From contig JACQPJ010000008.1 of assembly GCA_016207605.1 (NCBI GenBank), forward strand, positions 1 to 35,509: 35,509 nt of DNA. Direction: 5' to 3'. Positions 1-23,445 of the stretch are shown in pieces. Under the pieces are notes generated by a model, which was not told the DNA's origin, did not search any database, and was given only the letters and a program-made list of their open reading frames with translations. The number at the start of each line of letters is the position of its first letter. Within the stretch, counting starts at the first letter, position 1. Position numbers and translations under genes: made by a program. The stretch comes from Elusimicrobiota bacterium. GTDB lineage: Bacteria; Elusimicrobiota; Elusimicrobia; UBA1565; UBA9628.

Positions 1-502
1 CCTTGACGAAGAGCGGAAACTGGACCTCCAGGCCCGACTCCAAGGTCGCGGGCTTCAGCATGTTGGAGACGGAGTCGCCCTTGACCCCGGGAACGGTCGA
101 GACGACGGCGAGCACGACGTTGGCGGGCAGCTCGATGGAGGTCAGCTTGCCGTCGATGTAGACGCCCAGCACCTCCATGTTCTCATGCAGGAACTTCGCG
201 CCAGGACCGAGAAACTCCTTGGGGAAGGAAACCTGCTCGTAGGTCTCGTTGTCCATGAACACCGCCATGCCCCCTTCATCATAACTGTAAATCTTCTCGC
301 GCTTGGTCACCGGCACCTCGCGGAACTTCGTGCCCGAGGCGTAGGACTTCTCGACCACGTTGCCCGTGGACAGCGAGCGCAGCGTCGAGCGGTAGACCGC
401 CGCGGACTGCGACTTGCGGTGATGCTGATAGGAGATGATCTGGTAGATCTGGCCGTCGTCCTCGAAGACGAGGCCGTTGCGGAACTGCGAGGTGTCGATC
501 AT
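1..502 (-). CDS. efp: Elongation factor P (3' end outside window)
   Basis: EF-P binds between the ribosomal P and E sites and relieves stalling on polyproline stretches. The visible 167 codons cover the KOW-like domain and most of the OB domains, from MIDTSQFRNG to QFPLFVK, and the C-terminus runs off the window edge. From Phe7 the protein aligns without gaps to E. coli EF-P over at least 40 residues. In that alignment the loop tip KPGKG reads RKSQS, so the modified Lys34 position is Gln32 here. The ATG at 502 is preceded by the hexamer TAAGAT, 6 nt upstream (509-514), and there is no Shine-Dalgarno. This fits a leaderless mRNA made from its own promoter, although the gene lies only 35 bp after the glycosyltransferase stop. 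The family assignment is secure. The lack of a modifiable residue is read directly; its consequence is inferred. Confidence 0.95.
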   Translation of the reverse strand, partial: MIDTSQFRNGLVFEDDGQIYQIISYQHHRKSQSAAVYRSTLRSLSTGNVVEKSYASGTKFREVPVTKREKIYSYDEGGMAVFMDNETYEQVSFPKEFLGPGAKFLHENMEVLGVYIDGKLTSIELPANVVLAVVSTVPGVKGDSVSNMLKPATLESGLEVQFPLFVK

Positions 503-508
503 TCGGGC

Positions 509-517
509 ATCTTATCA
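509..517 (-). promoter_or_regulatory. Extended -10 motif of efp
   Basis: Read on the minus strand the sequence is TG-A-TAAGAT followed by GCCCGA and the efp ATG. It is an extended -10 arrangement (TGN before a TANNNT hexamer) exactly 6 nt from the start codon, as expected if transcription begins at the A of ATG. The same arrangement precedes fah, era and mutY. I see no convincing -35. Confidence 0.5.
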
Positions 518-537
518 AAACCGGCGGCGGCGCGGCG

Positions 538-1998
538 TCAGCCGCCGGGGGCCAGGCGCCAGACCTGGACGCGGCCGGCGGGATCCTCAAAGGCAAGGGA
601 GGCGCGCGGAATTGCGCGCAGGAGCGCGCGTAGGTCGGAGGCTGAGGGAACGGCGTAGGCGCCGCCAGACGGACGCAGGCCGAAGGACGTGTCCTCCACC
701 AGGATGTAGGAAACGCCGGATCGGCGGCAAAAACGCTCCAAGGACGCCGGATCGCGCACGTCGTAGGGAATATGCGCGACGGAAAGTCCCGTCAGAAGAT
801 GCCAGCGGCCGTCGTACTCGGCGGCGAGCGCCGCGCCGGAGGCACGGGCGCGAAGCCATTGAGCCGCCGCGGCGGGCGGGACGTTGAGGGGCGTGGCTGG
901 ATGCCGGGACGCTGCGAGGACGCGGGCCGTGGGAGACGCCGAAAATAAGAGCGAAAGAACCGCGGCCCCGCGCAGGGCCCACCGGCCCCTGCGGCCGGCG
1001 CCCGCCGCGGCGAAAGCGCCGCGCAGGACAAGCCACGCCGCCAGGGGCAGGAGCGGCACGAAGTAGCGTTCGGCCTGCTTGCTCCAAATCCAGTGAGGCA
1101 GCAGGAATAAGACCCCGAAAAGGGCCGCGGCGCGGGAAACGGGCCGGCGCAGGCCGCGCGATCCAACGAGCGCGAGGGCCGCGCCCGTCGACGCGAGGAC
1201 CGCCGCCCAGGGCGCGTCGTTCCCAAACGGCCAGCGCCACAAGGAACGCTCGAAGACCGCGCGGAGAGCGAAGAAGGCATTTTCGACGACCGGGAAACCC
1301 GCCGCGGACGCCGAGGAGAAAAGTTCCCGCGAATAATTCCAGGACCCTCCCGCGAGGAGAGAGCCGCGCAGAAGCCACGCGCCGAGAGCCGCGGCCGCGG
1401 GAAAGAGGGCGAGCGCGGCGGGGCGCCGGCGGCGGTCGAAAGCCAAGACCGCCGCGAAGGCGAGCGCGAGACATATCCCCGTCGGACGCGCGAGCGCGGC
1501 CAAGGCCAGGACCGCGCCCAGGCCGAACGAAATCGCGCCTTGGCGGCGAAAGCGGGAAAACAAAAACAGCGCCAGGGACGCGAGAAAAAGCAGCGGCCCA
1601 TCGGACAGCAACGTCCCCGCCGTGCTCGCGATGAGCGGCGAGAGCGCCGCGCAGGCCAAGACCCAGTCGCCGATCTCGGCGCCGTCCTCGTCCTCGACGA
1701 CGGCGGCGAAAAGGGCCAAGGCCGCGAGATGGATCAGGATCGCGAAGCCCTGAAGGATCGCCAAGCGATCCCCGGCGAGCGCGACGGCCGGGGCCAGCAG
1801 CAGAGGCCAGCCGGGCATGTAGTTGACCAGCGGCGGCGCGCCCGGCGCCGAGAGCTCGGCGTAGCGGCCGAGGAGCAGTGACTTGGCGCCGATCAGGTAG
1901 AAAGCGTCGTCATTGAAGAAGCCGACGTAGTAGGCGTGACGGCAGAGCCAAAACAAAATGCCGGCCGCGGCGAGCAGGGCGAAGCGGCGGCAGCTCAT
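538..1998 (-). CDS. Polytopic membrane glycosyltransferase (GT39/ArnT-like)
   Basis: A predicted integral membrane protein of 486 aa with about ten hydrophobic segments. The N-terminal segment (ALLAAAGILFWLC, residues about 8-20) is followed by a loop carrying the acidic pair Asn-Asp-Asp (FFNDDAFYL). In lipid-linked sugar transferases of the PMT/ArnT type, the catalytic acid lies in this first extracytoplasmic loop. A soluble C-terminal part follows (about residue 400 on), ending in a short domain rich in charged residues. Such enzymes move a sugar from a polyprenyl-phosphate donor to lipid or protein outside the membrane; the substrate here is unknown. The ATG at 1998 overlaps the rsmA stop (ATGA), indicating translational coupling. 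A longer open frame extends upstream to 2424, but that part is the rsmA shadow and lacks membrane character. Confidence 0.7.
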   Translation of the reverse strand: MSCRRFALLAAAGILFWLCRHAYYVGFFNDDAFYLIGAKSLLLGRYAELSAPGAPPLVNYMPGWPLLLAPAVALAGDRLAILQGFAILIHLAALALFAAVVEDEDGAEIGDWVLACAALSPLIASTAGTLLSDGPLLFLASLALFLFSRFRRQGAISFGLGAVLALAALARPTGICLALAFAAVLAFDRRRRPAALALFPAAAALGAWLLRGSLLAGGSWNYSRELFSSASAAGFPVVENAFFALRAVFERSLWRWPFGNDAPWAAVLASTGAALALVGSRGLRRPVSRAAALFGVLFLLPHWIWSKQAERYFVPLLPLAAWLVLRGAFAAAGAGRRGRWALRGAAVLSLLFSASPTARVLAASRHPATPLNVPPAAAAQWLRARASGAALAAEYDGRWHLLTGLSVAHIPYDVRDPASLERFCRRSGVSYILVEDTSFGLRPSGGAYAVPSASDLRALLRAIPRASLAFEDPAGRVQVWRLAPGG

Positions 1999-2777
1999 GT
2001 CAGGCCTCGACCCTTTTTCGCCAACGCGGCCCAGCACTCGAAGGGGATGTCCTCCGGTCGGGCCGCGGGGTCGGCGCCGGCGGCGGCCAAGGCGGCCTCG
2101 ATTTCGGCTTTTGGCCTGCGCAGGGCCTTGGCCAGGACCCCCGCCGCCATCTTGCGGCGCTGGGAGAAGGCGGCCTTGGCCAGGCGCCAGAAGGCGGGCT
2201 CCTCCTCGGGCGGGACGCGCGGCGCGGCCAGGCGGCGCAGGACGACCACGGCCGAGTCCACCTTCGGACGCGGGCGAAAGGACTCCGGCCCCAGCTCCAG
2301 GAGAATGCCCGCGTCCGCGCGCAGGCGCGTCGACAGCGCGAGCAGGCCGTAGTCCGCGCCCCCGGGCGCGGCCGCGACGCGCAGAGCGACCTCCTTCTGG
2401 AACATCAGCGCGGCCCGCGTCCAAGCGGGCCAGAGCAAGAGCTTCTGCAGGATGGGAGTCGCCACGGCATAGGGCAGGTTGCCGGCGACGAGCCAGGGCC
2501 CGGGCCCGAGAGAGCCCAAATCGAAGGTCAGGAAATCCTCGCGGACAACGCGCAGGCGGCCGGCGTCCGGGACGCGTCCGGGCAGGGCCGCGGCCGCGGC
2601 CTCGTCGAGCTCCACGGCGACCACGTCCGCCCCCGCGCGCAGAAGCGGCATGGTGAGCGCGCCGCGGCCGGGGCCGACTTCCAATATGGAACGGCCGGGC
2701 CCCGCGCCGACGGCGGCCGCGACCGCTTCGGCCGCGGCGGAGTCGATCAGGAAGTGCTGGCCGAGCCGCGCGCCCAT
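1995..2777 (-). CDS. rsmA: 16S rRNA dimethyladenosine transferase RsmA (KsgA)
   Basis: SAM-dependent enzyme that dimethylates two adjacent adenines near the 3' end of 16S rRNA, a late check on 30S assembly. At 260 aa it is slightly shorter than E. coli KsgA. It starts with the family signature MGARLGQHFLID. Motif I is LEVGPGRGALT, the acidic ribose-binding motif is VAVELDE, and the catalytic motif IV is GNLPY. The C-terminal helical domain contains FSQRRKM. The open frame continues 18 codons upstream to 2831 inside murC, but the conserved N-terminus and the position 4 bp after the murC stop favour the ATG at 2777. The gene ends in Gly-Arg-Gly-Leu-Thr, and the DNA encoding this tail (GGGTCGAGGCCT) equals one end of the 60-bp repeat found elsewhere in the window. 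Confidence 0.95.
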   Translation of the reverse strand: MGARLGQHFLIDSAAAEAVAAAVGAGPGRSILEVGPGRGALTMPLLRAGADVVAVELDEAAAAALPGRVPDAGRLRVVREDFLTFDLGSLGPGPWLVAGNLPYAVATPILQKLLLWPAWTRAALMFQKEVALRVAAAPGGADYGLLALSTRLRADAGILLELGPESFRPRPKVDSAVVVLRRLAAPRVPPEEEPAFWRLAKAAFSQRRKMAAGVLAKALRRPKAEIEAALAAAGADPAARPEDIPFECWAALAKKGRGLT

Positions 2778-2781
2778 CCGG

Positions 2782-4182
2782 TCAAAGCGGGGCCGCGCAA
2801 CGCCCGCGGCGGCGGCGCAGCAGGTCCTCACCGAGCTTCCACACGTCCCCCGCGCCCAAAGTGAGCACGACGTCGCCGGGCTTGAGCTGCCTGGCGGCCT
2901 CCAGCGCGCCGGGGAAGGGCGCGCAGGCGACGCCCGCCTTGCGCGCCGAATCGAGGATCAGGCGAGAGGTCACGCCCGGGATGGGCGCCTCGCCCGCCGC
3001 GTAGACATCCGTGACCCAGACGAGGTCGGCGGCCTTGAGCGCCGGGCCGAAATCCTTGGCCAGGAGCTTCGTGCGCGAGTAGCGGTGCGGCTGGAAGACC
3101 GTGATCACGCGCCGCGCCTTCCATAGCCCGGCCACGGCCGCGAGCGCGGCGCGAATCTCGGTGGGGTGGTGGCCGTAGTCGTCCACGAACTCGACGCCGT
3201 CGGCCGCGCCCAGGCGGTCGAGCCGGCGCCCGACGCCGCGAAAATCGGCCAGACCGCGGGCCAGGCGCTGAAGGTCGAAGCCCAGGAAGGCGCCGGCGGC
3301 CAGGGCCCCGAGCGCGTTGAGCACGTTGTGGCGGCCGGGCACGCGCAGGCGCAGCGAGACGGCCTTACGGCCGCCGCGAAGCACGTCGCAGGAGGAGCCG
3401 TCCCGGTCCAGGCGCAGGCGGACCGCGCGCCAGTCCGCGCCGGGGCCCAGACCGTAAGTGACCACGGGACGCTCCACGCGCGGGCGCAGGCTTCTCAGGA
3501 CCGGGTCGTCGGCGCAGAGCACCGCGGCACCGTAAAAAGGAAGCCGCTGAAGGTGCGCGACGAAGGCGTCCTTGAGCCGCTCCATGGTCTTGTAGTAGTC
3601 CATGTGGTCGTCGTCGACGTTGGTGACCACGGCGACCAGCGGCGTCAGGAACAGGAAGGAGCCGTCCGACTCATCGGCCTCGGCGACCAGGTATTCGCCC
3701 ACGCCGAGCCGGGCGTTGGAGCGGATGTTCTTGACCCTGCCGCCCACGATCATCGTGGGCGCCGCGCCCGCGGCCTGAAGGGCCATGGAGACCATCGCGG
3801 TGGTCGTGGTCTTGCCGTGGGAGCCGGCGACGGTGACCGTCTTTTTTAAACGGCCGAGCTCGGCCAGCATCTGCGCGCGAGGGATGACGGGCACGCCGCG
3901 GCGGCGCGCCTCGGCGACCTCGGGGTTGGAGGCGGAGACGGCCGAGCTGATCACCACGACCTGGGCGTCGCGGACGTGCGCGACGGCGTGCCCCGAAAAG
4001 ACCCTGATTCCGGCGGCGGACAGGCGGCGGGTGAGCTCAGAGGGCTTGGCGTCCGAGCCGGAGACGCGGTAGCCCAGGTTGAAGAGCACCTCGGCGATGC
4101 CGCTCATGCCCACGCCTCCGATGCCCACGAAATGGACGCTCCTCACGAACGAGCGCATGAATCCGGCGTCTTCGCGCCTCAT
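2782..4182 (-). CDS. murC: UDP-N-acetylmuramate--L-alanine ligase MurC
   Basis: Cytoplasmic ATP-dependent ligase adding L-Ala to UDP-MurNAc, the first step of the peptidoglycan stem peptide. It has 466 aa, normal for the family. The N-terminal UDP-binding Rossmann loop is GIGGVGMSG (residues 20-28). The ATP P-loop is GSHGKTTTT (120-128). Further on are the Mur-family blocks DESDGSF, NVDDDHMDYY, PGRHNVLNALGA and the C-terminal DDYGHHPTEI and FQPHRYSRT. The ATG at 4182 overlaps the stop of the upstream gene (ATGA) and has a strong Shine-Dalgarno (AAGGAG) about 12 nt before it. It is separated from the usual dcw neighbours (murG, murB, ftsQ, ftsA, ftsZ), none of which is in the window. A long in-frame extension to 5649 is a shadow of the upstream gene. 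Confidence 0.97.
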   Translation of the reverse strand: MRREDAGFMRSFVRSVHFVGIGGVGMSGIAEVLFNLGYRVSGSDAKPSELTRRLSAAGIRVFSGHAVAHVRDAQVVVISSAVSASNPEVAEARRRGVPVIPRAQMLAELGRLKKTVTVAGSHGKTTTTAMVSMALQAAGAAPTMIVGGRVKNIRSNARLGVGEYLVAEADESDGSFLFLTPLVAVVTNVDDDHMDYYKTMERLKDAFVAHLQRLPFYGAAVLCADDPVLRSLRPRVERPVVTYGLGPGADWRAVRLRLDRDGSSCDVLRGGRKAVSLRLRVPGRHNVLNALGALAAGAFLGFDLQRLARGLADFRGVGRRLDRLGAADGVEFVDDYGHHPTEIRAALAAVAGLWKARRVITVFQPHRYSRTKLLAKDFGPALKAADLVWVTDVYAAGEAPIPGVTSRLILDSARKAGVACAPFPGALEAARQLKPGDVVLTLGAGDVWKLGEDLLRRRRGRCAAPL

Positions 4183-6485
4183 GATCCTTTCTCCTTGACG
4201 GCATCCGCGGGCCGCAGCAGCCACTTGAGCCCGTCCGCGGCGGCCCTGTTGCGGGGCTCGAGCTCCAGCGCCTTCTTGAGCGCGGCGACGGCCCCGTCCT
4301 CGTCGCCCGCCATCGCCGCGGCGACCCCGCGGCCCAGCCACGCCGGCGCCGAGCGCGGGTCCAGCCGCGTCGCGCGCAGGAACGCCTCGGCCGCGAGCTG
4401 GCTCTCGCCCACGGCCGCGTGGGCCAGGCCCAGCGCCGTCCACCAGTCCGCGTCGTCGGCGCGGCCCGCCGCCGCCTCCTCGCCGGGCTCCGGGATCACC
4501 TCCGCGGCCAGCTCCATCCACCCGGTGCCGATGACCCAAAGCCCCATGTCGTTGCCGACCCGCCGCGGCTCGTAGCTGACCTTGGGCGCCCGGGCGGGCA
4601 GGCGCGCGACGTCCACGGGGCGCGCGTAGGTCAGGTTCATGCCCAGGCGCGCGTCCGAGTCCGGCGGCGCCTGGCTCATGACCCCGCGCAGGTCGTCCAG
4701 GATCGCGCGGATCTGCGCCTGGCGGGTCTTGGCGTCGCCGGCGGACAGGGGGTAGTCGCGGCGCGCGGCGCGCGGCGCCGCGGACGCGCCGCCCGACTCG
4801 GCCCGGGCGAAGGCGCGCCGCAAGCTGGAGCCCTCGGCCGGCCCCTCGCGCAGGAGCTTGGGGCGCGGCAGGAACACGGCGTCGACGTGCATGACCGCGT
4901 CCTGGTCCAGGGGCAGGCGGCGCAGGTTGCGCTCGAAGAGGGACAAGGGGTCCGAGGGCTCCGGCTCGGCGCGCGGCCGGGGCTCCTGGACGCCCTTGCC
5001 GCCGCTCGGCGCGGCCGCGGCGGGCGCCCGGGCCCCGGCGTAGGCGACGTTGAGCTGGAGGCCGCCTCCCCCTTCCTCCGGCGTGAGTCGGAACGCCTCG
5101 GCCATGACGCCGCGCGCCTTGCGGCCCTGGCCCGCGGCGATATGGAGGAGGGCCAGGCGCAGGCGCGCGACCGAGTCGCCGGGCTTGAGGTCCACCGCCT
5201 TGCGCAGGGTCGCGGCGGCGTCCTTGCCCCGCCCAAGCCGGTCCTGGGCGCAGCCCAGCTCGAGCAGGGCGTCCTCGTAGCTTGGCTCCAGACGGACGGC
5301 CTCCGAGAACTCCGCGGCGGCGTCCTCGTCGCGGCCGAGGCGACGGTAGATCGAGCCGAGCTGGAAGCGGTAGAGGGGACTGCGCTTGTCGAGCTCCGCG
5401 GCCTTGCGGAAGCGCTCCAGCGCCGACGGGTAGTCGCCGAGACTCTGGCGCAGGGAACCCAGGTTCATCTGCGCGTCGGCGCGGGATGGGTCGAGCTCGA
5501 CGGCGCGGCGGAACTCCCCCTCGGCGGCCGCGGCGTCCTCCTTCCAGGCGTAGGAGATGCCGAGAAGAAGGTGCCCTTGGGCGTTGTCGGGCTCGAGCGC
5601 GACGGCGGTCTTGTAGGAGGCGATGGAGTCGTCCACCAGCCCGCTCCAATACTGGGCGACGCCGAGCAGCAGATGCCCCAGCGGATCCTTCGGGTCGGCG
5701 GCGACGGCGCGCCGGGTCTCCTCCAGGGCCAAGTCGTAGCGCTTCTCCTCGAGGTAGCCCTGGGCCTGACGCAGGCCGCGCCGCGCCTGGGCGGCCATGA
5801 TCTCGTCCCAGACCGTGCGCTGTCCCGGCTCGGTGCGGCCCGCGCGCGCGGGCGCGGCCGCCGCCAGCAGGGCGAACGCCGCGGCGGCCGTCCAGCGCCG
5901 CAGCGCCGGGAGGAACGCCGCCAGGGCGCGGCCGCGATGGCTCACGGCGTTCTTCTCCTCCAGGGTCAGCTCCGCCAGCGCGCGCCCGTCGGGGAGAAGG
6001 AAGAGCGGATCGTAGCCGAAGCCGCCGCGGCCGCGCGGCGAATCGGCGATGAACCCCACCAGGCGGCCTTCGACGCGCTCCACGCGGCGCTCGGGATCGG
6101 CCAGCGCCAGCACCGTGCGAAACCGCGCGCCCCGCCGCGCCGGCGCGACGCCCGCCAGCTCGCGCAGCAGCTTGCCGCAGTTGTCATCATACGAACAACC
6201 CGGCCCGGCCCAGCGCGCGGAACGGACGCCCGGCGCGCCGCCCAGCGCGGCGACTTCCAGCCCCGTGTCGTCGGCCAGCGCCCAGGCTCCGCAGGCCGCC
6301 GCGGTCTCGAGCGCCTTCTTCTCCGCGTTGCCCTCAAGCGTGGCGCGGTCCTCGACCACCTCGGGGACCCCGGGATAGGCGTCCAGCTCGAGGCAGGAGA
6401 CGCCCGCGTCCCGCAGAAAACGCGAAATCTCCGCGATCTTGTGCGCGTTTCGGGTGGCGAGAACGAGGCGGATCGGACCGGACAT
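4179..6485 (-). CDS. rdgB: RdgB (dITP/XTP pyrophosphatase) fused to an exported TPR domain
   Basis: One uninterrupted 768-aa frame. Residues 1 to about 195 form a complete Ham1/RdgB domain that hydrolyses dITP and XTP to monophosphates. It shows the substrate motif TRNAHKIAEI (11-20), ADDTGLEV (71-78), the GFGYDP block (156-161) and SHRGRAL (182-188), close in length to E. coli RdgB. It is followed directly by Leu-Arg-Arg-Trp, a hydrophobic stretch (about 199-213) and Ala-Arg-Ala-Gly, which looks like a signal peptide. From about 236 to 470 there are tandem TPR units (for example HLLLGVAQYWSG and HLLLGISYAW), then a linker and two more TPR units near the end (about 640-755). No ATG, GTG or TTG lies near the junction that could start the TPR part alone. 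The product could be one membrane-anchored protein or could arise from an unusual internal start. It overlaps murC by 4 bp. Confidence 0.85.
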   Translation of the reverse strand: MSGPIRLVLATRNAHKIAEISRFLRDAGVSCLELDAYPGVPEVVEDRATLEGNAEKKALETAAACGAWALADDTGLEVAALGGAPGVRSARWAGPGCSYDDNCGKLLRELAGVAPARRGARFRTVLALADPERRVERVEGRLVGFIADSPRGRGGFGYDPLFLLPDGRALAELTLEEKNAVSHRGRALAAFLPALRRWTAAAAFALLAAAAPARAGRTEPGQRTVWDEIMAAQARRGLRQAQGYLEEKRYDLALEETRRAVAADPKDPLGHLLLGVAQYWSGLVDDSIASYKTAVALEPDNAQGHLLLGISYAWKEDAAAAEGEFRRAVELDPSRADAQMNLGSLRQSLGDYPSALERFRKAAELDKRSPLYRFQLGSIYRRLGRDEDAAAEFSEAVRLEPSYEDALLELGCAQDRLGRGKDAAATLRKAVDLKPGDSVARLRLALLHIAAGQGRKARGVMAEAFRLTPEEGGGGLQLNVAYAGARAPAAAAPSGGKGVQEPRPRAEPEPSDPLSLFERNLRRLPLDQDAVMHVDAVFLPRPKLLREGPAEGSSLRRAFARAESGGASAAPRAARRDYPLSAGDAKTRQAQIRAILDDLRGVMSQAPPDSDARLGMNLTYARPVDVARLPARAPKVSYEPRRVGNDMGLWVIGTGWMELAAEVIPEPGEEAAAGRADDADWWTALGLAHAAVGESQLAAEAFLRATRLDPRSAPAWLGRGVAAAMAGDEDGAVAALKKALELEPRNRAAADGLKWLLRPADAVKEKGS

Positions 6486-6493
6486 AAAGAGCT

Positions 6494-6503
6494 ATGTTAA
6501 CAT
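6494..6503. promoter_or_regulatory. Palindromic divergent promoter core, rdgB/mutY
   Basis: The 24-bp gap between the rdgB and mutY starts contains the perfect 10-bp palindrome ATGTTAACAT. On each strand it reads TG-T-TAACAT, an extended -10 motif. On the plus strand the hexamer ends 6 nt before the mutY GTG; on the minus strand it ends 8 nt before the rdgB ATG. The two hexamers share the central TA. No separate -35 boxes are evident; those sequences would lie inside the opposite genes. Confidence 0.5.
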
Positions 6504-6509
6504 TTCCGC

Positions 6510-7514
6510 GTGAAACCCTCGGCGCGCGCGGCCCTGCTGCGCTGGTATCGTCGTCAGCGCCGCGATCTTCCCTGGCGCCGCGACCCCACTCCTTACCGCG
6601 TCTGGGTCTCGGAGATCATGCTCCAGCAGACGACGGTCGCCGCCGTCGCCCCCCGCTACGAGCGCTTCCTGAGCCGCTTCCCGGACGAGGCCGCCTTGGC
6701 CGACGCGCCCCAGCAGGACGTCCTCAAGGAGTGGTCGGGCCTGGGCTACTACGCCCGCGCCCGCAACCTCCACCGCGCCGCCGCGGAGATCGTCCGGCGC
6801 CACGGCGGCCGTTTTCCCGGCGAGCCCGAGACCGTCCGCGCCCTGCCCGGGGTCGGCCGCTACACCGCCGGCGCGATCCTCTCCATCGCCTTCGGCAAGC
6901 GCGAGCCGCTGGTCGACGGCAACGTGATCCGCATCTTCGCGCGCTATTACGGCCTGGCCGGATCGGCCAAGGATGCCGCGCTCCAGCGCGAGTGCTGGTC
7001 GCGCGCCGAAAAGCTGGTACCCAAAGAGTCCCCCGGGGACTGGAACCAAGCCCTCATGGAGCTGGGAGCCACGCTCTGCGCGCCCGACGCGCCGTCCTGC
7101 GCCATTTGTCCCCTCTCGCGCGATTGCACCGCCTTCCGCGGCGGCGACCCGGAACAATTCCCCGCCCCCGCCCAACGCCGCTCCCCCGTCCCCGTGCGCT
7201 GGACCTGCCTCTGGATCGAGCACAAAGGCCGCGTCCTACTCTGGAAGCGCTCCGAGAAAGAGCGCCTCCTTAAAAATCTATGGGGCCTGCCCGAATCCCA
7301 GCGCGTCCCCGCCGCTCCCGGCCGAAAAACCGCGACGATCTCCCACACCATCACCCATCACGACGTGGAGATCGCCCTGCGCGAAGGCTCCCTCCGCAAG
7401 GACGCATCCTTGCCGCCAGAAGCGTCCTGGGTCCCGAAGTCCAAGCTCCGCGACTACCTGGTCTCCTCGCTCTGGCTTAAATGCCTTCGCGCCTCCGCAG
7501 CGCAAAAGCGCTGA
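6510..7514 (+). CDS. mutY: A/G-specific adenine glycosylase MutY
   Basis: DNA repair glycosylase removing adenine mispaired with 8-oxoguanine. It has 334 aa. Near the N-terminus are LPWRRDPTPYRVWVSEIML and QQT, containing the catalytic Glu. The helix-hairpin-helix is LPGVGRYTAGAI, followed by the catalytic Asp in LVDGNVIR. The [4Fe-4S] cluster ligands are spaced C-x6-C-x2-C-x5-C (CAPDAPSCAICPLSRDC). A C-terminal NUDIX-like 8-oxoG recognition domain includes LWKR and LKNLWGLPE. The start is GTG at 6510, with no Shine-Dalgarno but an extended -10 motif 6 nt upstream. Its DNA-damage context fits the divergent neighbour rdgB, which cleans the nucleotide pool. The gene is followed by an intrinsic terminator. 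Confidence 0.95.
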   Translation: MKPSARAALLRWYRRQRRDLPWRRDPTPYRVWVSEIMLQQTTVAAVAPRYERFLSRFPDEAALADAPQQDVLKEWSGLGYYARARNLHRAAAEIVRRHGGRFPGEPETVRALPGVGRYTAGAILSIAFGKREPLVDGNVIRIFARYYGLAGSAKDAALQRECWSRAEKLVPKESPGDWNQALMELGATLCAPDAPSCAICPLSRDCTAFRGGDPEQFPAPAQRRSPVPVRWTCLWIEHKGRVLLWKRSEKERLLKNLWGLPESQRVPAAPGRKTATISHTITHHDVEIALREGSLRKDASLPPEASWVPKSKLRDYLVSSLWLKCLRASAAQKR

Positions 7515-7519
7515 GAATA

Positions 7520-7578
7520 GGGCCGCGCCGGCTTTCGAGACTCCCGCGAAGCCCTATCGGCAGGCGCGGCCCTTTTTT
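7520..7578 (+). terminator. Intrinsic terminator of mutY
   Basis: A perfect 10-bp stem GGGCCGCGCC (7520-7529) pairs with GGCGCGGCCC (7563-7572), followed directly by six T (7573-7578). The 33-nt loop folds further, GGCTTTCG against CGAAGCC with one bulged base. It begins 6 nt after the mutY stop. It is the only stem with a U-tract that I find in the window. Confidence 0.85.
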
Positions 7579-7752
7579 CTCTTCGTCCGCCCGTCTCAGG
7601 CATAAGACCCCGAAACGAGCGGCGCGGGTCCGGGCGCTTTGGTCATGACCTGGGCGCTGGCTGCGTGTCCGTGGACGCGCGGCATCGGGCCGCCGCCGTG
7701 AGCTCACGGGGCGAACCGCGACGTCAATTAGAATAGCCTGGGAAGGACGCCG
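7579..7752. other. Non-coding spacer between convergent mutY and ygfZ
   Basis: About 170 bp without a supported gene. It holds two perfect palindromes, GGTCATGACC (7641-7650) and CCGTGAGCTCACGG (7696-7709), neither followed by a T-run. The second could form a short hairpin in the ygfZ transcript. Short open frames here have no recognisable protein character. No RNA gene is recognised. Confidence 0.4.
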
Positions 7753-7812: not shown

Positions 7813-8621
7813 ACGCCCGTCAGGGGCGCGGGCCAAAGACTCACGGCGCGGATTTCGGCGCGAGCGCCGTCCGCGTCGAGGATCGCGCCGGACGCGGAAT
7901 CTTCGAGACGGACCATCCCCAGGCCGATGGGACCCGCGACGCTGGTGACCTTGCCGGTTTCCCGGCCGCCTTTCCCGAGGACCGCGCCGACGGTCGGCGC
8001 GCGCTCGGAAAAACGCAGGCCGACTAAAATCCGGTTGACGTGGCCGACGCGGACCAGGCGGGAGACTGTTTCCTGGCCCATGTAGCAGCCCTTGTCCATG
8101 CTGATGGCCGCCTCCTGGCGCGCCTCCAGCGGCAAGGTCTGCTCATCCATGTCCGCGCCGAACCATGGGAAGCCCGCCGCGACGCGCAAGGCGTGAAATT
8201 CCTCGAAAGGCATGGACGCGACATGGGGCGGCAGAGCCTCGTCCAGGAGAAGGCGCGCCGGCTCAGCAAGCCGCGGCCAAGGCAGGCCGCCGTCAAAGCC
8301 CTCACCGATGATGAGAAAAGCGCGCGGATGGAGGCGCTCGAAGCTGGACTTGGACAGCATGATCTTTTTCTCGAACGCGCGCTGGAAGCCCGCGGCCGCG
8401 GCGGGACGAGTCACGGCCAGGATTGCGTCGGACGCTTTTTCATATAGCTCGCAGTCGGCGACCATCAAGCCCTTGGGCGTGAGCACACAGGAGGGAAGCA
8501 TCGCGCCGGGTCGCAGAGCCTTCATGTCCGCCGTCATGAGCCCTTGGAGGAAGCTTTTTGCATCCAAACCGTGGAAGCGGAAAAAGCCCCAGTCCGAGAT
8601 GTCGAGCATTCGCGAAACCAC
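7809..8621 (-). CDS. ygfZ: YgfZ/GcvT-like folate-binding protein
   Basis: Tetrahydrofolate-binding protein of the GcvT fold. YgfZ (IBA57 family) supports maturation or repair of certain Fe-S enzymes, such as the methylthiolating radical SAM enzymes. It has 270 aa. The hallmark K-G-C-Y-x-G-Q-E appears as KGCYMGQET at about residues 178-186. The N-terminal domain contains GLMTADMKAL, and the C-terminal beta-barrel contains GKVTSVAGPIGLGMVRLE. Two starts are possible: GTG at 8621 and ATG at 8609 (MLDISDWG). I take the GTG because TAAAAT lies 5 nt upstream, as in other apparently leaderless genes here; the ATG is almost as likely. The stop codon TAG is the start of repeat copy A. Confidence 0.88.
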   Translation of the reverse strand: MVSRMLDISDWGFFRFHGLDAKSFLQGLMTADMKALRPGAMLPSCVLTPKGLMVADCELYEKASDAILAVTRPAAAAGFQRAFEKKIMLSKSSFERLHPRAFLIIGEGFDGGLPWPRLAEPARLLLDEALPPHVASMPFEEFHALRVAAGFPWFGADMDEQTLPLEARQEAAISMDKGCYMGQETVSRLVRVGHVNRILVGLRFSERAPTVGAVLGKGGRETGKVTSVAGPIGLGMVRLEDSASGAILDADGARAEIRAVSLWPAPLTGV

Positions 8622-8626
8622 AGCCT

Positions 8627-8632
8627 ATTTTA
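8627..8632 (-). promoter_or_regulatory. -10 box of ygfZ
   Basis: TAAAAT on the minus strand matches the -10 consensus at 5 of 6 positions and lies 5 nt before the GTG start, again fitting a leaderless transcript. No good -35 is visible. Confidence 0.4.
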
Positions 8633-8641
8633 CGAATTTCA

Positions 8642-8647
8642 TACAAT
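8642..8647 (+). promoter_or_regulatory. Possible -10 box of the zeta-like gene
   Basis: TACAAT (5 of 6 consensus) lies 10 nt before the ATG at 8658, and AAGG (8649-8653 region) could serve as a Shine-Dalgarno. No -35 is recognised. The divergent ygfZ -10 box lies 10 bp away. Confidence 0.35.
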
Positions 8648-8657: not shown

Positions 8658-9233
8658 ATGAAAACTCCGGAATTATTCGTCATCGCAGGGCCTAACGGCG
8701 CGGGAAAGACGACGTTCGCGCGGGAGTATCTCCCCTATTTCGCCAAGTGTCATGAGTTCGTGAACGCCGACTTGATCGCGGGCGGCCTTTCGCCGTTCTC
8801 GCCCGGCGCGGCCGCCCTGGAAGCGGGACGCATCATGCTGCGGAAGATCGATGAGTTGTCCGCGCAGCGCCACACCTTCGCGTTCGAGACCACGCTTTCG
8901 GGCAGAAGCTATCTGGCGCTTTTCAAAAGACTACGCGCGAACGGCTACAAGATTCATCTTATTTTTCTCTGGCTGCCTCACGTCGATATTGCAATCCAGC
9001 GGGTAAAAGACCGCGTTCGCCGCGGGGGACATTCGGTTCCGGAACAGGATATACGCCGGCGGTTCGACCGCGGGATAAAAAACTTGCTGCAAGAATACTC
9101 TCAAGTTATGGACACATGGGGCATCCTTGACAACTCAGGCAGCGTTCCGCAACTGATAGTTCAGGGGCAAAGCGGGCGTCTGGTCATCTTCGATATTCCC
9201 TTGTTCCGCCAAATTCAGGAGAACGCACAATGA
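8658..9233 (+). CDS. Zeta-toxin-like P-loop kinase (putative toxin)
   Basis: A 191-aa P-loop NTPase related to the zeta/PezT fold, whose known members phosphorylate UDP-GlcNAc or other small metabolites. The Walker A is GPNGAGKTT (residues 11-19). It is followed by FVNADLIAGGLSPF and FETTLSG, the zeta-type NAD-x-IA and ExT blocks, and by an Arg-rich stretch (RVKDRVRRGGHSVP) matching the lid region. An open frame continues upstream to 8544, but ATG 8658 fits the domain start and has AAGG upstream. It overlaps the next small gene by 4 bp (ATGA), as in a toxin-antitoxin pair with the toxin first. Third codon positions are noticeably richer in A/T than in flanking genes, which suggests acquisition. 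Toxicity is inferred; a non-toxin kinase role remains possible. Confidence 0.75.
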   Translation: MKTPELFVIAGPNGAGKTTFAREYLPYFAKCHEFVNADLIAGGLSPFSPGAAALEAGRIMLRKIDELSAQRHTFAFETTLSGRSYLALFKRLRANGYKIHLIFLWLPHVDIAIQRVKDRVRRGGHSVPEQDIRRRFDRGIKNLLQEYSQVMDTWGILDNSGSVPQLIVQGQSGRLVIFDIPLFRQIQENAQ

Positions 9234-9417: not shown

Positions 9418-9426
9418 TGATAGGAT
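9418..9426 (+). promoter_or_regulatory. Extended -10 motif of the fah-hmgA operon
   Basis: TG-A-TAGGAT followed by GAGCCC and the ATG at 9433, so the hexamer is exactly 6 nt from the start. It is nearly identical to the era motif (TG-T-TAGGAT, also 6 nt) and the efp motif. It lies in the 17-bp gap after the putative antitoxin, so the degradation operon could be expressed independently of the toxin pair. Confidence 0.5.
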
Positions 9427-9432: not shown

Positions 9433-10449
9433 ATGAAGCTCGTCACGTTCGAGGTCGCCACCGCGCTGGGCCCGGTCGAGAGGCTGGGCGCTTTGCACGA
9501 TGGAAAGATCGCGGACCTTAACCTCGCCGCGGCGTTGCTCTACGGTGCCGAAAACCGCTCCAGACCTCGGGAACGAGCGGACTTCTTCGTGCCGGCCGAC
9601 ATGCTGGGGCTCCTGGATGGCGGCGAGGAGTCGCTGGCCGAGGCGCGGCGCGCGCTGGAGAAGCTCAAGGGAGAACCGACGGGGCCGCGCGGGGAGCGCG
9701 TCATCTGGAAGGAGGGCGAGGCCAGGCTCAAGGCTCCCCTCCCCCGCCCCCGCTCGCTGCGCGACTTCTTCGCCTTCGAGGACCACGCCAAGGCCGGGGC
9801 CAAGCGCCGCGGCGAGGCCGTGGCGCCGGAGTGGTACGAGCAGCCGGTCTACTACAAGCAGAACCCCCGCGAGATCGTGGGGCCGGGCGAGACCATCCCC
9901 TGGCCAGACTACACCCGCAAGCTCGACTTCGAGTTCGAGGTCTGCGCGGTCACGGGCAGGCCCGGCCGGGACATCCCCGTCGCCGATGCGGCGCGGCATA
10001 TTGCCGGCTACTGCGTCCTCAACGATTGCTCGGCGCGCGACATACAGAAAAACGAGATGCTCTGCCGCATGGGGCCGGCCAAGGCCAAGGACTTCGCCAC
10101 CGCGCTGGGCCCCTGGCTGGTCACGGCCGACGAATGGGACGGCCGCGCGCCGGAGATGGTCGTGCGCGTCAACGGCGAGGAGTGGAGCCGCTCCAAGGGC
10201 TCCCAGCCCTACTGGTCCTTTCCCGTCATGCTCTCGCACGTCTCCCAGGGCGAGAGCGTGCTCCCCGGCGAGATACTGGGCTCGGGCACCTTCCACACCG
10301 GCTGCGGCCTGGACCTGGACCGCTGGCTCAAGCCCGGCGACGTCCTCGAACTCGACGCCGGACCGCTGGGCGTCCTTAAAAACATCGTGGGAACCCCGAA
10401 GGGACAGGTGCGGCTAAAATATAACCGCGACGGGAGCTACGCCCCATGA
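9433..10449 (+). CDS. Fumarylacetoacetate hydrolase family protein
   Basis: Cytosolic hydrolase of the FAH fold, 338 aa. It probably cleaves fumarylacetoacetate to fumarate and acetoacetate, the last step of homogentisate degradation. Metal-binding residues are visible as the E-x-E pair in LDFEFEV (Glu167 and Glu169) and Asp198 in VLNDCSARD, matching the Glu-Glu-Asp set of characterised FAH enzymes. The block YYKQNPREIVGPGETIPWP and the closing GDVLELDAGPLG are typical of the family. The next gene starts within its stop (ATGA) and encodes homogentisate dioxygenase, which strongly supports the role. No maleylacetoacetate isomerase is present in the window, so the isomer handled in vivo is not settled. 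Confidence 0.88.
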   Translation: MKLVTFEVATALGPVERLGALHDGKIADLNLAAALLYGAENRSRPRERADFFVPADMLGLLDGGEESLAEARRALEKLKGEPTGPRGERVIWKEGEARLKAPLPRPRSLRDFFAFEDHAKAGAKRRGEAVAPEWYEQPVYYKQNPREIVGPGETIPWPDYTRKLDFEFEVCAVTGRPGRDIPVADAARHIAGYCVLNDCSARDIQKNEMLCRMGPAKAKDFATALGPWLVTADEWDGRAPEMVVRVNGEEWSRSKGSQPYWSFPVMLSHVSQGESVLPGEILGSGTFHTGCGLDLDRWLKPGDVLELDAGPLGVLKNIVGTPKGQVRLKYNRDGSYAP

Positions 10450-13089: not shown

Positions 13090-14061
13090 TTAGGGGGATC
13101 CCCCGCGATGGATCAGGAAGCTTGGCACCCGTTTTAAAAGAAAATAGTCGCAAGGAGTATGTTGGATGCCCACAAACTCATTATATTGGTTGTCATGGCT
13201 CAGATAATAATCCTGGCGAATCAATCCATCCACCTCTTCGTCAAAGACGATCTCGCTTGAATCGCGCCCTCGAAAATCATGCGCCAGTTTCGTCGCGTCA
13301 TCAGACGAGTAATGATTGGCCCATCCTTTTTGCAAATTAAAGAAGAAGTTTCCTCCAGATGCCTTGAAACCAAGAATGCCGTCCTTGAGCGCCGCTCCTT
13401 CGATTTTCTCCATGAACCCTGATTGCACCTTAAATGCCGACTGAGTGCCTGCATCCGTTCTACGAGGCTGGTCGACGGAACCAAAAAACAGCGCATAATC
13501 GCCCCGGTAGGCCGTTCCCTCACTCGTGAACGTCTTGTCCGTGCGTCCCCAGAGAGCCACAAAGCCGGGATAATCCTTATCCATAAAGTAGGAAGGGCCT
13601 TTCGTCTTTAGATCAACCCCATAATACATGACCTCCCATTTTCCACCTGATTGAGCCTTCACCACGTACTGCGACCATTCATCCTTGTAGGGAATCGGCG
13701 AGAACCGCAGGACTTCATAATGAGGGCATTTAAGTTCCAACGCTAATGGGTTGCGATTGGTCTTGATTTCCCTGATGACCGCCGGCGCGCGCGAATTCCC
13801 GTTCCCGGGCAAAATCAAGCGGTCGGGCAATGCCTGTTTGACCAAGGGCGTGAAATCCAGAAGATACCTGCTCCCGTCAAACCCCCAGGAGTAGACTGGA
13901 GCTTCTGGGCTGCCTCCCACAATGAGCAGCAAATGCTCCCCGCTTCTATCGCCCATTCTCTTTTCTACCGGAATGTCGTACACGTAAGCCCCCGGCATGA
14001 GGGCTTCGGCATAACGCGATATCCCTAAAAAAATCAGCGCCCCAACCGCAATTTTATGCAT
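13090..14061 (-). CDS. Exported protein of unknown function
   Basis: I do not recognise this 323-aa protein. It starts with a Sec signal peptide: MHKIAVGALIFLGIS, then a likely cleavage near AEA (about residue 21). The mature part is rich in aromatic residues, Gly and Asp, has no membrane segment, and looks like a beta-rich secreted or periplasmic protein (for example HLLLIVGGSPEAPVYSWGFD). The ATG at 14061 is chosen over the longer frame start at 14109 because the signal peptide starts there, a purine-rich AAGAAGAAGG precedes it, and a canonical promoter lies just upstream. Base composition is clearly more A/T-rich than the flanking genes, suggesting recent transfer. It converges on the HPPD-like gene with a 13-bp gap and ends with the palindrome GGGGGATCCCCC (13093-13104). 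Confidence 0.8.
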   Translation of the reverse strand: MHKIAVGALIFLGISRYAEALMPGAYVYDIPVEKRMGDRSGEHLLLIVGGSPEAPVYSWGFDGSRYLLDFTPLVKQALPDRLILPGNGNSRAPAVIREIKTNRNPLALELKCPHYEVLRFSPIPYKDEWSQYVVKAQSGGKWEVMYYGVDLKTKGPSYFMDKDYPGFVALWGRTDKTFTSEGTAYRGDYALFFGSVDQPRRTDAGTQSAFKVQSGFMEKIEGAALKDGILGFKASGGNFFFNLQKGWANHYSSDDATKLAHDFRGRDSSEIVFDEEVDGLIRQDYYLSHDNQYNEFVGIQHTPCDYFLLKRVPSFLIHRGGSP

Positions 14062-16749: not shown

Positions 16750-16809
16750 CTAGGCCTCGACCCTGCGGGCTCGGCACAGATGCGCGGAGGAAGGGCTCAT
16801 AGCATCTAG
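16750..16809 (-). repeat. 60-bp CTAG-bounded repeat, copy B
   Basis: On the minus strand it begins CTAGATGC at the phoH stop codon and ends GGCCTAG immediately before the valS ATG, so it makes up the whole intergenic region. Its bases 2-4 are the TAG stop of phoH. The internal stem AGATGC/GCATCT and the small CCC-GCA-GGG hairpin are conserved relative to copy A although the bases between them differ. Confidence 0.8.
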
Positions 16810-20742: not shown

Positions 20743-20781
20743 GGGCGATTATTATCCTAAAAAAACAGCCCCGGGCAAAGC

Positions 20782-21021
20782 CTAAAACTCCGCCAGCCAG
20801 CGGGATCCCGCCTCCACGATCCGCCGCGTGCGCGGCCGCAAGTCCGCGGCGAGGGCGCGGGCAAAAAGCTCCCCGGCGGCGTCGACGAAGCGTTGCGGAT
20901 CGAAGCCGAGCACGTCGCGCCATCGGGGATCGACGCGGAGGAAAAGAAGGGCGTCGTCCAGGGCCGTGAAGCCCTCGATCTCCTCATGCTCCCAGCCCCG
21001 GGAGAGCCGGGCCGTTTCCAT
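20782..21021 (-). CDS. Small paralogue or remnant of the exported family (B)
   Basis: A 79-aa frame without signal peptide. Its C-terminal half, from VDPRWRDVLGFDPQRFVDAA through LFARALA to RRIVEAG, resembles the C-terminal block of the flanking genes: DSRWSRHPGFSSDRFAAAA in the upstream gene, and AAAIFTEAL with MRRVVVEAA in the downstream one. It therefore looks like a duplicated C-terminal fragment. It lies in the same frame as the upstream gene, 27 bp beyond that gene's TGA. A GGGGAGG sits directly against the ATG, too close for an ideal Shine-Dalgarno. It may be a short expressed protein, a decayed third copy, or the end of a gene cut by a stop mutation. Confidence 0.5.
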   Translation of the reverse strand: METARLSRGWEHEEIEGFTALDDALLFLRVDPRWRDVLGFDPQRFVDAAGELFARALAADLRPRTRRIVEAGSRWLAEF

Positions 21022-21045
21022 CCTCCCCAGGGCGCCTTGCGGCGC

Positions 21046-22455
21046 TCAACGCTTGGAAACGGCCGTTCCGGCGGCGGCCGGGGCGGCCGAGGAATGCCCG
21101 GGCGTCGGGACCGACGGGCGGGCATGGGCGGCGGAGTGAGCGGAGATTCTCAGGGCGTCCACGGCGCGACGCACCCGCTCGGAGAGCGCCTGATCGGCGG
21201 AGCTTGCGACGGACTGGGCGAACGCCAGCGCGTTGGCGACGACGGCCTGCTGCTTCGGAGCGGTCGAATCGCTGCGCAGATCGCCCAGAATCCCAACCGC
21301 CGCCGCGGCGAAGCGATCCGATGAAAAGCCGGGATGCCGGCTCCAGCGGGAATCGAAGCGCAGCGACGACAAAACGTGCGCCACCAAGGAGGCATCCACG
21401 TCGTCTCGTCTCAGGAAGCCCGCCAGGCGCAGGGTCCACAATCGGATGTCCGCGTCGGACGCAAAACCCAGAAGCGGCCACGCCGCTCCGGCGCCCCGGT
21501 CCGCGTCCCGCGGAGCGATTGTCGCCCCGGCCCACCCCTCAAAGGACCTCAGCCAAGCGGTGAAAAAGGCTTTGATCTCGCCGGGGGAATCCGCCGCCGG
21601 CATCGCGCGCGTCGCCAGGGCGTTGTCCAGAGCATGGCGGAAGCCGAGCGCCTCCAGGGCGAAATAGACGTCCCGAGCCAGAAGGCGCAGCTCCGGACCC
21701 ATGGAACGAGCCACGCCGGAGCCCGGCGGGATCATCTCCTCGGCGTCGAGGAAAGGCCTCAGCCCACGAAGCAGGGCCTCGGACGCTCGCACGCGCGCGC
21801 GCAGAGAATAGGGCGCGGGCTCAAGCGACGCGGCGAGCAAGCCGCCGAAGGCGTGAGCATGCTCGCCGAGAGGACTGGCCGCCAGATGCTCAACCCGCGC
21901 GCGCAGGGCGTCATCGGCCTGTTCCGCCGCGCCCAGATCGGCGGCTACCTCGTCGTCGTCCTCGCCGGCTCCATCGAAAAGTTCCCTGCGCAAATCCATG
22001 TCCCGGCCGCGGGCCGGCGCCGCGAAGCTCCTCGCGCCCGACACCAGGCTCGCCAACGCCGCGACCTCATGCCCGGTTCGGCGCAAGACTCTGACGATCT
22101 TGTCCGCGGCCCGAGCGTCCGAAGCCAGAACAAGCTGATGCGACACGCGCGCGGCGCCGGCGGACTCGGCCGACTCCGCGGGGGGACGGACCAACACGGC
22201 TCGCGAGTCCCGCCCCTTAACCAGGCTCTCGACGTGCATTGCGGCCAGGCGGTCGCGCCAAACGGCGTCGCCCACCGGCAGGGCGACGAGCAGGGGCACG
22301 ACGCCGGGAGCGTCGAAGGGCTCCGGGACGTCGGCCGCCGTCGGCGACAAGGCCGGCGCCTCGGCCGGGGCGGCCGACGGCCGCTCCGCCTCGAAGCGTT
22401 GGGCTCGGGACACGGAACAAAGGAAGGAAACGACGATCAGCAGAAGCATGCGCAC
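21046..22455 (-). CDS. Exported lineage-specific protein, paralogue A
   Basis: Not recognised. It has 469 aa with a signal peptide (MLLLIVVSFLCSVSRA then Gln-Arg-Phe) and a low-complexity Ala/Pro/Glu linker (about 20-50). A predicted alpha/beta part follows (VPLLVALPVGDAVWRD and HQLVLASDARAADKIVRVLR), then a long Ala/Leu-rich helical region and an Ala/Pro/Ser tail. It is related to the gene at 19213-20742 (see the shared landmarks there). The start may be GTG 22455 or ATG 22449, two codons in. A perfect TATAAT ends 7 nt before the GTG, so a leaderless GTG start or a 6-nt leader with ATG are both possible. It heads the unit running through hemW and phoH toward valS. Confidence 0.75.
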   Translation of the reverse strand: MRMLLLIVVSFLCSVSRAQRFEAERPSAAPAEAPALSPTAADVPEPFDAPGVVPLLVALPVGDAVWRDRLAAMHVESLVKGRDSRAVLVRPPAESAESAGAARVSHQLVLASDARAADKIVRVLRRTGHEVAALASLVSGARSFAAPARGRDMDLRRELFDGAGEDDDEVAADLGAAEQADDALRARVEHLAASPLGEHAHAFGGLLAASLEPAPYSLRARVRASEALLRGLRPFLDAEEMIPPGSGVARSMGPELRLLARDVYFALEALGFRHALDNALATRAMPAADSPGEIKAFFTAWLRSFEGWAGATIAPRDADRGAGAAWPLLGFASDADIRLWTLRLAGFLRRDDVDASLVAHVLSSLRFDSRWSRHPGFSSDRFAAAAVGILGDLRSDSTAPKQQAVVANALAFAQSVASSADQALSERVRRAVDALRISAHSAAHARPSVPTPGHSSAAPAAAGTAVSKR

Positions 22456-22462
22456 GACTCCA

Positions 22463-22492
22463 ATTATACTTTCCCCCCGGGAACGCTCTCAT
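22463..22492 (-). promoter_or_regulatory. Promoter of the 22455 gene
   Basis: On the minus strand a perfect -10 TATAAT (22463-22468) lies 18 bp after ATGAGA (22487-22492), a 4-of-6 match to TTGACA. The predicted start is at about 22456, at or next to the GTG start codon. Confidence 0.6.
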
Positions 22493-22536
22493 TGACGCAG
22501 ATCAAGGAATCGGGGGGCCGCCCGACGAGGGAGATT

Positions 22537-22545
22537 TGTTAGGAT
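22537..22545 (+). promoter_or_regulatory. Extended -10 motif of era
   Basis: TG-T-TAGGAT followed by GGCCGG and the GTG at 22552, so the spacing from hexamer to start codon is 6 nt. It matches the fah and efp motifs closely. There is no Shine-Dalgarno between it and the start codon. Confidence 0.5.
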
Positions 22546-22551
22546 GGCCGG

Positions 22552-23445
22552 GTGAGCATTCCCCACAAGGCCGGCTTCGTCGCCCTGGCCGGGCGGCCCA
22601 ACGCGGGAAAGTCCACGCTCTTCAACGCCCTGCTCAAGACGAAGCTGGCCATCGTCTCGCCCAAGCCGCAGACCACGCGGCACCGCATCCTGGGCATCCT
22701 GGAGGGCGAAGGCTTCCAGGCCTGCCTGCTCGACACGCCGGGGCTTTTGGACGCGCACCAGGACGACCTGCAAAAGGCCCTGCGCGTGGAGTCCGCCCGC
22801 GCCCTGCGCGAGGACGCCGACCTGGCCGTCTATCTCGTGGACGCGGCCGAGGCCGACCCCGCCAAGCCCGACGCCGTCTCGCCGCGCGAGGGCCTGCCGG
22901 TCCTGCTCGTCCTGAACAAATGCGACCGTGTGACTTCCGAGCCGCGCCTGGCCGCTCTGGAGGCGGCGTACTCCGCGGCGCTCAAGCCCGCCCGGGTGTT
23001 CCGCCTCTCGGCGCTCAAGGGAACCGGCGTCGAGGACTTGCGCGGGGAGCTCCTCGCCCGCCTGCCCGAAGGCGAGGCCTTCTACGAGAAGGGCCGCCTC
23101 TCCGACCGCTGGGAGCGCTTTTTCGCCGCCGAGCTGGTGCGCGAGCAGGTCTTCGCCTTCTACGAGCAGGAGATTCCCCACGCCGTGGCCGTCGTCGTGG
23201 AAAGCTTCCGCGAGGTCCCCGGCGGCCCCGACGAGGTCTATGCCGTTCTCTACGTCGAGCGCGACGGCCAGAAGGGCATCCTTCTGGGCAAGGGCGGCGA
23301 CGCCCTGCGGCGCGTGTCCGAGCGCGCCCAGGCCGCGCTGGAGAACTTCCTCGGCCGCCCCGTCCAGCTGGAGCTCTGGGTCAAGGTCCGCAGGAACTGG
23401 CGCAAAGACCCCCGTTCGCTCAGGGAATTCGGCTACCTGTCGTAG
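22552..23445 (+). CDS. era: GTPase Era
   Basis: Essential ribosome-assembly GTPase that binds the 3' end of 16S rRNA through its KH domain and GTP through the G domain. It has 297 aa, the usual length. G1 is GRPNAGKST, G2 lies around KPQTTRHRI, G3 is DTPG, G4 is NKCD and G5 includes SALKGTG. The C-terminal KH domain has the Era signature KGILLGKGGDALRRVSERA. The start is GTG at 22552. It acts in the same process as RsmA, encoded 20 kb away. It is monocistronic and converges on speA at a hairpin. Confidence 0.97.
   Translation: MSIPHKAGFVALAGRPNAGKSTLFNALLKTKLAIVSPKPQTTRHRILGILEGEGFQACLLDTPGLLDAHQDDLQKALRVESARALREDADLAVYLVDAAEADPAKPDAVSPREGLPVLLVLNKCDRVTSEPRLAALEAAYSAALKPARVFRLSALKGTGVEDLRGELLARLPEGEAFYEKGRLSDRWERFFAAELVREQVFAFYEQEIPHAVAVVVESFREVPGGPDEVYAVLYVERDGQKGILLGKGGDALRRVSERAQAALENFLGRPVQLELWVKVRRNWRKDPRSLREFGYLS

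Follow-up and report, generated by a model that had tools for sequence, protein, structure and literature searches.

The stretch of DNA analysed here (the window) spans 35,509 nt, positions 1 to 35,509 of contig JACQPJ010000008.1 of an uncultured Elusimicrobiota bacterium (assembly GCA_016207605.1), and four of its genes, efp, mutY, era and a fumarylacetoacetate hydrolase family gene (fah-type, fah in the following), carry the same extended -10 block, TGNTANNAT, exactly 6 nt before their start codons. The window is contig C33 of its genome (G000; 1.44 Mb, 75% complete), the GC content of which was about 69% in the sample that was read. The gene efp (2..502, minus strand; EF-P with the Pfam domains EFP_N, EFP and Elong-fact-P_C) extends past the window edge, and its block TGATAAGAT (509..517, minus strand) lies 6 nt from ATG 502, so that the predicted transcription start is the start codon itself. 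On the plus strand, TGTTAACAT at 6495..6503 precedes GTG 6510 of mutY (6510..7511; TIGR01084 above cut-off), TGATAGGAT at 9418..9426 precedes ATG 9433 of fah (9433..10446; matches under curated cut-offs), and TGTTAGGAT at 22537..22545 precedes GTG 22552 of era (22552..23442; NF000908 and TIGR00436 above cut-off), each at 6 nt.

Three further genes show related arrangements. An rdgB-type gene (4182..6485, minus strand), in which an RdgB/HAM1 domain (residues 6-199) is fused to a long region of TPR repeats in a single 768-aa frame, starts at ATG 6485 with its -10 element at 8 nt; in one congener locus (L245) the frame likewise continues beyond RdgB (508 aa, open at the edge). The 24 bp between this ATG and GTG 6510 of mutY hold the palindrome ATGTTAACAT (6494..6503, both strands), which is one symmetric extended -10 with TGTTAACAT on each strand; the single copy is common to both genes, and we propose it as a bidirectional promoter of the leaderless type. 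A gene without Pfam match (21049-22455, minus strand) has TATAAT at 22463..22468 (minus strand), 7 nt from GTG 22455, again leaderless-type but without TG, a dinucleotide that stands one base upstream of the hexamer in efp, mutY, fah, era and rdgB. The weaker case is a ygfZ-like gene (GCV_T/CAF17 domains) with TAAAAT at 8627..8632 (minus strand), 5 nt from GTG 8621, the start of which is uncertain. Divergent from it, 36 bp from GTG 8621, lies a gene of lower GC content (8658-9230, plus strand; GC 0.56) with Zeta_toxin and AAA_33 matches.

TGNTANNAT occurs seven times in the window against 1.15 copies expected, and none of 100 shuffles reached seven. Four of the seven copies are those of efp, mutY, fah and era, and the chance that four or more would fall at precisely this distance of 6 nt from the start codon of a frame of 60 aa or longer is about 2e-6, a value that assumes independent placement, although two of the seven copies are the two strands of one palindrome. 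The remaining copies at 25532-25540 (within the opening codons of a decarboxylase gene) and at 34834-34842 (upstream of the gene at 34879, at a different distance) are not such promoters. The initial annotation, which had pointed to a shared block before the four genes, thus placed it correctly in all of them (gap of 6 nt to ATG or GTG), and it was right about the TTTG preceding the block in three (efp, fah and era; mutY lacks it), about the block at 8 nt before rdgB and about TATAAT at 7 nt before the gene at 22455. Its TAAAAT at 5 nt before the ygfZ-like gene stands if the start is GTG 8621; our gene caller (self-written, based on codon usage, picking start codons blind to the motif) instead placed the start at 8609. 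The statement that the gaps are free of a Shine-Dalgarno (SD) sequence holds for the gaps themselves, but the TAGGAT of fah and era contains AGGA, so that a reading of the block as an SD needed testing.

A genome-wide scan of the distance from the motif to the starts, suggested in the same annotation, showed a preference for 6 nt: TGNTANNAT-N6-ATG is present 15 times in the whole of G000, the reversed pattern once and the 14-nt spacing not at all. Across 198 genomes of the phylum, grouped by the classification of the scanning tool, matches at 6 nt and 14 nt numbered 270 vs 28 in the own genus (8 genomes, the own genome included), 504 vs 85 in the own family (16 genomes), 2478 vs 717 in family f3 of the same class (52 genomes) and 635 vs 350 in family f4 (17 genomes), whereas the other classes (103 genomes) showed the opposite preference (2133 vs 3229). 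Relative to the reversed pattern, the 6-nt count is 25-fold in the family, 8.7-fold in f3 and 1.9-fold in the other classes. These group-wise ratios make the 6-nt preference a trait of the class, strongest in the lineage of the window. One f4 genome of 2 Mb (G177) contains 116 matches to TGNTANNAT-N14-ATG, far more than its neighbours, perhaps reflecting a repeat or another promoter habit.

Gene starts were called in G000 (n=584), in the congener G189 (n=329) and in G025, a genome outside the family (n=176). TANNNT stands at exactly 6 nt before 36 starts in G000 and 40 in G189, with only 0-8 starts for each gap between 12 and 31; at 6-8 nt the numbers are 68 of 584 and 61 of 329, so that most genes of G000 are not of the leaderless type. 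The arrangement at 6-8 nt depends on gene context: it is found in 35/100 (G000) and 35/92 (G189) divergent genes, and in 11/310 and 3/142 genes that begin at most 25 bp from a codirectional neighbour. In G025, 12 of the 176 starts have a gap of 6 nt and other gaps have up to 11 starts; the samples from three more genomes outside the family (G102, G006 and G192) showed no peak at this gap. In small yardstick sets, TANNNT stood 6-8 nt before 4 of 41 coding sequences (CDS) of Deinococcus radiodurans MP1 (one CDS with an ATT start being left out), 7 of 47 of Thermus thermophilus pTT27 and 3 of 55 of Escherichia coli, with a gap-6 peak in Thermus (6/47); for D. radiodurans, the stretch is too short to judge such a peak. 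The profiles of the gap-6 starts have G at -14 (0.64 in G000, 0.55 in G189), and C at -1 in G189 (0.72). A pyrimidine is usual before a transcription start, and it is in excess at -1 of the gap-6 starts of G189 (35/40 vs 82/125 other first genes, p=0.009) and G025 (12/12, every one T, vs 54/82, p=0.016).

Orthologs of the four genes were compared in a survey that favoured a motif-bearing start within 30 nt of the projected start and is therefore biased toward the motif, although the offsets of the starts were small (all 0 in fah, -1 to +1 in the motif rows of era). The era gene has TANNNT at 6 nt (13) or 7 nt (4) in 17 of the 21 family loci that could be assessed (4 of 25 lacked the N-terminus), 15 with TG, and the hexamer varies among TAGGAT, TACGAT, TATCAT, TAGACT, TATGAT and TAAGAT. 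The window Era is 70% identical to that of one "Elusimicrobia bacterium" metagenome-assembled genome, the single Elusimicrobia relative obtained in a contig scan with era and the only hit used (15 others were remote). In fah, TANNNT at 6-8 nt is found in 21 of 30 family loci, including 12/12 of the genus, all twelve with TG, and both era and fah orthologs thus retain the element together with its spacing. The rdgB gene has the extended -10 at 8 nt in 11 of 26 rows, every one within the genus.

The upstream region of efp behaves differently. Among the 30 orthologous loci (L185-L214), the same ATG is preceded by an extended -10 in some congeneric species and by an SD in others: five have the -10 (at 6 nt in the window, L193, L195 and L203, at 9 nt in L188), and 24 have an SD 4-mer or longer, which are 24 of the 25 without a -10. 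In L204 the survey assigned a -10 before an upstream GTG, and an SD is present at the projected ATG. We conclude that before one fixed ATG the -10 replaces the SD; as the two can hardly coexist there, the weight of the comparison lies in the exchange between close relatives. In mutY, a -10 was found at 6 nt in the own genome and at 8 nt in one locus of another genus among the 28 loci with a start (2 of 30 had none), and at 6-8 nt in 0/11 congener loci, in which the DNA ahead of mutY resembles the terminal part of a different gene. In one congener (G112, locus L245) a BON-domain gene, not mutY, begins at the symmetric site.

The site shared by rdgB and mutY is one example of a wider pattern. 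The generalized form ATGNTANCAT is its own reverse complement, so that both strands read as an extended -10 in which the TG is at the same time the CA of the opposite TANCAT. A single copy can therefore suffice for a divergent pair of leaderless genes whose starts are 22-26 bp apart. The pattern start-N6-8-ATGNTANCAT-N6-8-start (ATG or GTG) was counted against a control in three groups, with 19 sites vs 0 in the family and its order (17 genomes), 16 vs 2 in 78 other members of the class, and 11 vs 16 in the other classes (103 genomes). Some of the 19 sites are redundant, five being the rdgB site and further pairs recurring among congeners. Frames of at least 80 aa lie on both sides in 15 of 20 fetched sites, which were chosen by hand with several repeats left out (L247 and L248 are still one gene pair from two genomes) and among which three of the short frames (81-84 aa) may have arisen by chance, given the high GC content. 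Pfam matches were obtained for 9 of 10 proteins from six symmetric loci, and the head-to-head pairs include His_Phos_1 vs CYTH, PhoU_div vs a response regulator, and an HD-domain protein vs era, besides others. In the G000 sample, all three divergent pairs with starts 18-30 bp apart carry a -10 at 6-8 nt on both sides; the sole such pair in G189 has it on one side. We lean towards the view that ATGNTANCAT is a compact two-way promoter of the class Elusimicrobia, at which transcription would fire in both directions, each time from the start codon of a leaderless gene, with the two start codons 22-26 bp from each other.

Motif, spacing, conservation, gene context and the exchange of an SD for a promoter before efp are plain in the sequences, and leaderless transcription is very likely. 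Taken as a whole, the explanation that efp, fah, era and mutY, and probably rdgB and the gene at 22455, are expressed as leaderless mRNAs from extended -10 promoters of the housekeeping sigma factor has, in our judgement, a high probability. The promoter core would be an extended -10 (TG-N-TANNAT) with a -35 that is weak at most. At least four of the six bases of TTGACA were present at 5 of 36 gap-6 starts vs 23 of 208 controls in G000, and at 8 of 40 vs 9 of 125 in G189. RNA synthesis commonly starts some 7 nt past the -10 hexamer, and with a hexamer ending 6 nt before the start codon, this codon is the expected 5' end; RNA polymerase would thus begin at the start codon or within one or two bases, and ribosomes would initiate on the 5'-terminal AUG or GUG without an SD. 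Work by Mitchell and colleagues from 2003 is said to describe extended -10 promoters of E. coli as TG-N-TANNNT with a weak -35; the TG-N-TANNNT element recurs here, with a -35 that would likewise be weak, and differs in lying so near that transcription is expected to begin at the start codon. Region 3.0 of RpoD reads RTIRIPVHMKE in all ten congener loci examined, which we take to retain the TG-reading residues of sigma70 (His455 and Glu458); no RpoD match was obtained in the own genome, which is incomplete.

Three other explanations were weighed. If the block were an SD, with the AGGA of TAGGAT in fah and era of the window at a good distance, the genes would be ordinarily SD-led, and two findings agree with this: CCTCC is kept in six of seven 16S tails from other genera of the family (the seventh had no match to the search string, and searches of the own genome and of five congeners gave no 16S), and SD-like 4-mers peak 4-10 nt before the starts in G000. 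What the orthologs conserve, however, is T, A and T together with TG, AGGA occurring in only 2 of 17 era orthologs, and in the gap-6 profiles position -10 is mixed while A prevails at -9 and -8. We therefore rejected the SD reading of TAGGAT; it is very improbable and, in our judgement, refuted. A loss of the anti-SD was likewise rejected on the basis of the 16S tails; the anti-SD kept in other genera of the family and the 4-mer peak in G000 indicate that both modes of initiation coexist. In the class Elusimicrobia, leaderless initiation would then often serve first and divergent genes, and SD-led initiation operon-internal genes and some first genes.

The -10 could also be real and the genes leadered, either because the true starts lie further downstream or because these promoters are secondary to leadered ones upstream. 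The start codons are predictions, and further promoters may lie upstream; the efp start, however, is fixed by the SD before the same ATG in the 24 orthologs, the 6-nt peak persists with start calls blind to the motif, and the 24 bp between the rdgB and mutY starts are too tight for two leaders, which makes this explanation unlikely. That A+T-rich bits before starts merely mimic TANNNT in a GC-rich genome is suggested by the enrichment of A/T directly upstream of the motif at the gap-6 starts of G000 (-18 to -15). Such an artefact was rejected by the spacing and reversed-motif controls, since the sharp maximum at 6 nt is absent from reversed or scrambled motifs, a spacing of 14 nt gives only about a tenth of the hits in the genus, and the other classes of the phylum prefer the opposite; we give it practically no credence and regard it as refuted.

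Several observations weigh against leaderless expression from extended -10 promoters or restrict its evidence. The transcription starts are deduced from sequence alone, and the positions of mutY and efp are not conserved across the genus. One of the two G000 samples consisted mostly of contigs picked for motif matches, and G189, although its stretches were not chosen in this way, was picked as the maximum of its genus in the spacing scan. In the other G000 sample (247 kb, not so chosen), the full nine-base motif has 13 copies, none at 6 nt and two at 7 nt. It is rare there, and the peak in this sample rests on shorter forms: TANNAT before open frames still peaks (11 at 6 nt, 9 at 7 nt), and TANNNT stands at 6 nt before 9 of 220 called genes. 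TG precedes the hexamer in only 18 of 36 gap-6 starts in G000 and 10 of 40 in G189, the latter lean to a -35, and the excess of pyrimidine at -1 was not seen in G000 (22/36 vs 114/208, p=0.59). No SD 5-mer is present at the starts with TANNNT at 6-8 nt (0/68 in G000, 0/61 in G189), which gives no independent support, as the hexamer fills the place of the SD and no 5-mer fits at 6-7 nt. The argument that -10 elements and SD 5-mers never coincide was consequently dropped from the case against the SD, and the same geometry limits the Fisher p values for comparisons of -10 with SD, both in the gene samples and in efp.

The initial annotation had further proposed that core genes are leaderless and that newcomers, represented by two A/T-rich loci with canonical promoters, are not. 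Both promoters were found. TTGACA-17-TATCCT (14109-14081, minus strand) lies 19 nt from ATG 14061 of a gene without Pfam match (13093-14061, minus strand), and TTGATA-17-TATACT (34833-34861, plus strand) lies 17 nt from ATG 34879 of an A+T-rich gene (34879-35241, plus strand) with a Gp49-like (DUF891) domain, as in HigB-type toxins; no SD was found in the 17 nt between its -10 and ATG. Taking low GC content at third codon positions (GC3) as a mere proxy for acquisition, with start prediction likely weaker in low-GC genes, leaderless-type starts among first genes numbered 1/40 in low-GC3 genes vs 54/223 in the others in G000 (p=6e-4) and 4/28 vs 54/155 in G189 (p=0.045). At a stricter 10% GC3 cut the difference in G189 is not significant (3/19 vs 55/164, p=0.19), nor is it at any cut in G025 (1/15 vs 15/83, p=0.45). 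Of the proposal, the leaderless reading of the extended -10 is well supported, and the contrast between core genes and newcomers would be a tendency in the genus only, not a rule. A core gene, efp, itself alternates between the leaderless type and SD-led initiation among congeners, and together with mutY it indicates that the arrangement comes and goes in conserved genes within a single genus. Elsewhere in the window, ARAGORN called a tRNA-Phe at 3750-3838 (plus strand) inside a long coding frame of the opposite strand, probably a false positive.

Both kinds of element have known counterparts. Bacterial leaderless "TA-led" genes, described in Deinococcus-Thermus and Actinobacteria, carry TANNNT some 12 bp ahead of the start codon, and the distance between the -10 box and the transcription start is put at about 10 bp (Zheng et al., 2011; PMC3160421, in the parts available to us). 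The genes described here share with them the hexamer with its first T at -12, the poor conservation of its middle bases in GC-rich genomes and the presence of SD-led genes alongside; they differ in belonging to another phylum and in the TG found in a quarter to half of the gap-6 cases. "Elusimicrob" does not occur in the text of that paper, taken apart from the list of its 953 genomes. Bidirectional promoters with a symmetric -10 have start sites mostly 18 bp apart, and 10-23 bp in five tested cases (PMC12825309, PMC10268837, as far as their available text goes). The two-way sites proposed here would be alike in one near-symmetric -10 used both ways with starts on both sides. They differ in that TA is all that the two hexamers have in common, each TG coincides with the CA of the opposite strand, and it is the start codons that are separated by 22-26 bp; the word "leaderless" is absent from the available text of both papers. 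The class Elusimicrobia is named in PMC10783764, in the part accessible, only in a table of anti-SD types, and the literature searched (with hits partly listed) described neither leaderless genes in Elusimicrobia nor divergent leaderless genes sharing a single symmetric extended -10. Both elements, the TANNNT of leaderless genes and the symmetric bidirectional promoter, are thus of known kinds, and the lineage is apparently new.

Leaderless expression would occur regularly in a large lineage, most of it uncultured, that is not among the groups commonly cited for it, with a bearing on the annotation of start codons and on the design of expression in Elusimicrobia. The efp orthologs, in which one fixed ATG follows either a -10 or an SD, offer a natural experiment on the change of initiation mode. 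If the two-way promoters are what they appear to be, about ten conserved bases and two spacers would do the work of two promoters and two translation starts, and divergent leaderless transcription could be tested on about 30 bp of DNA.

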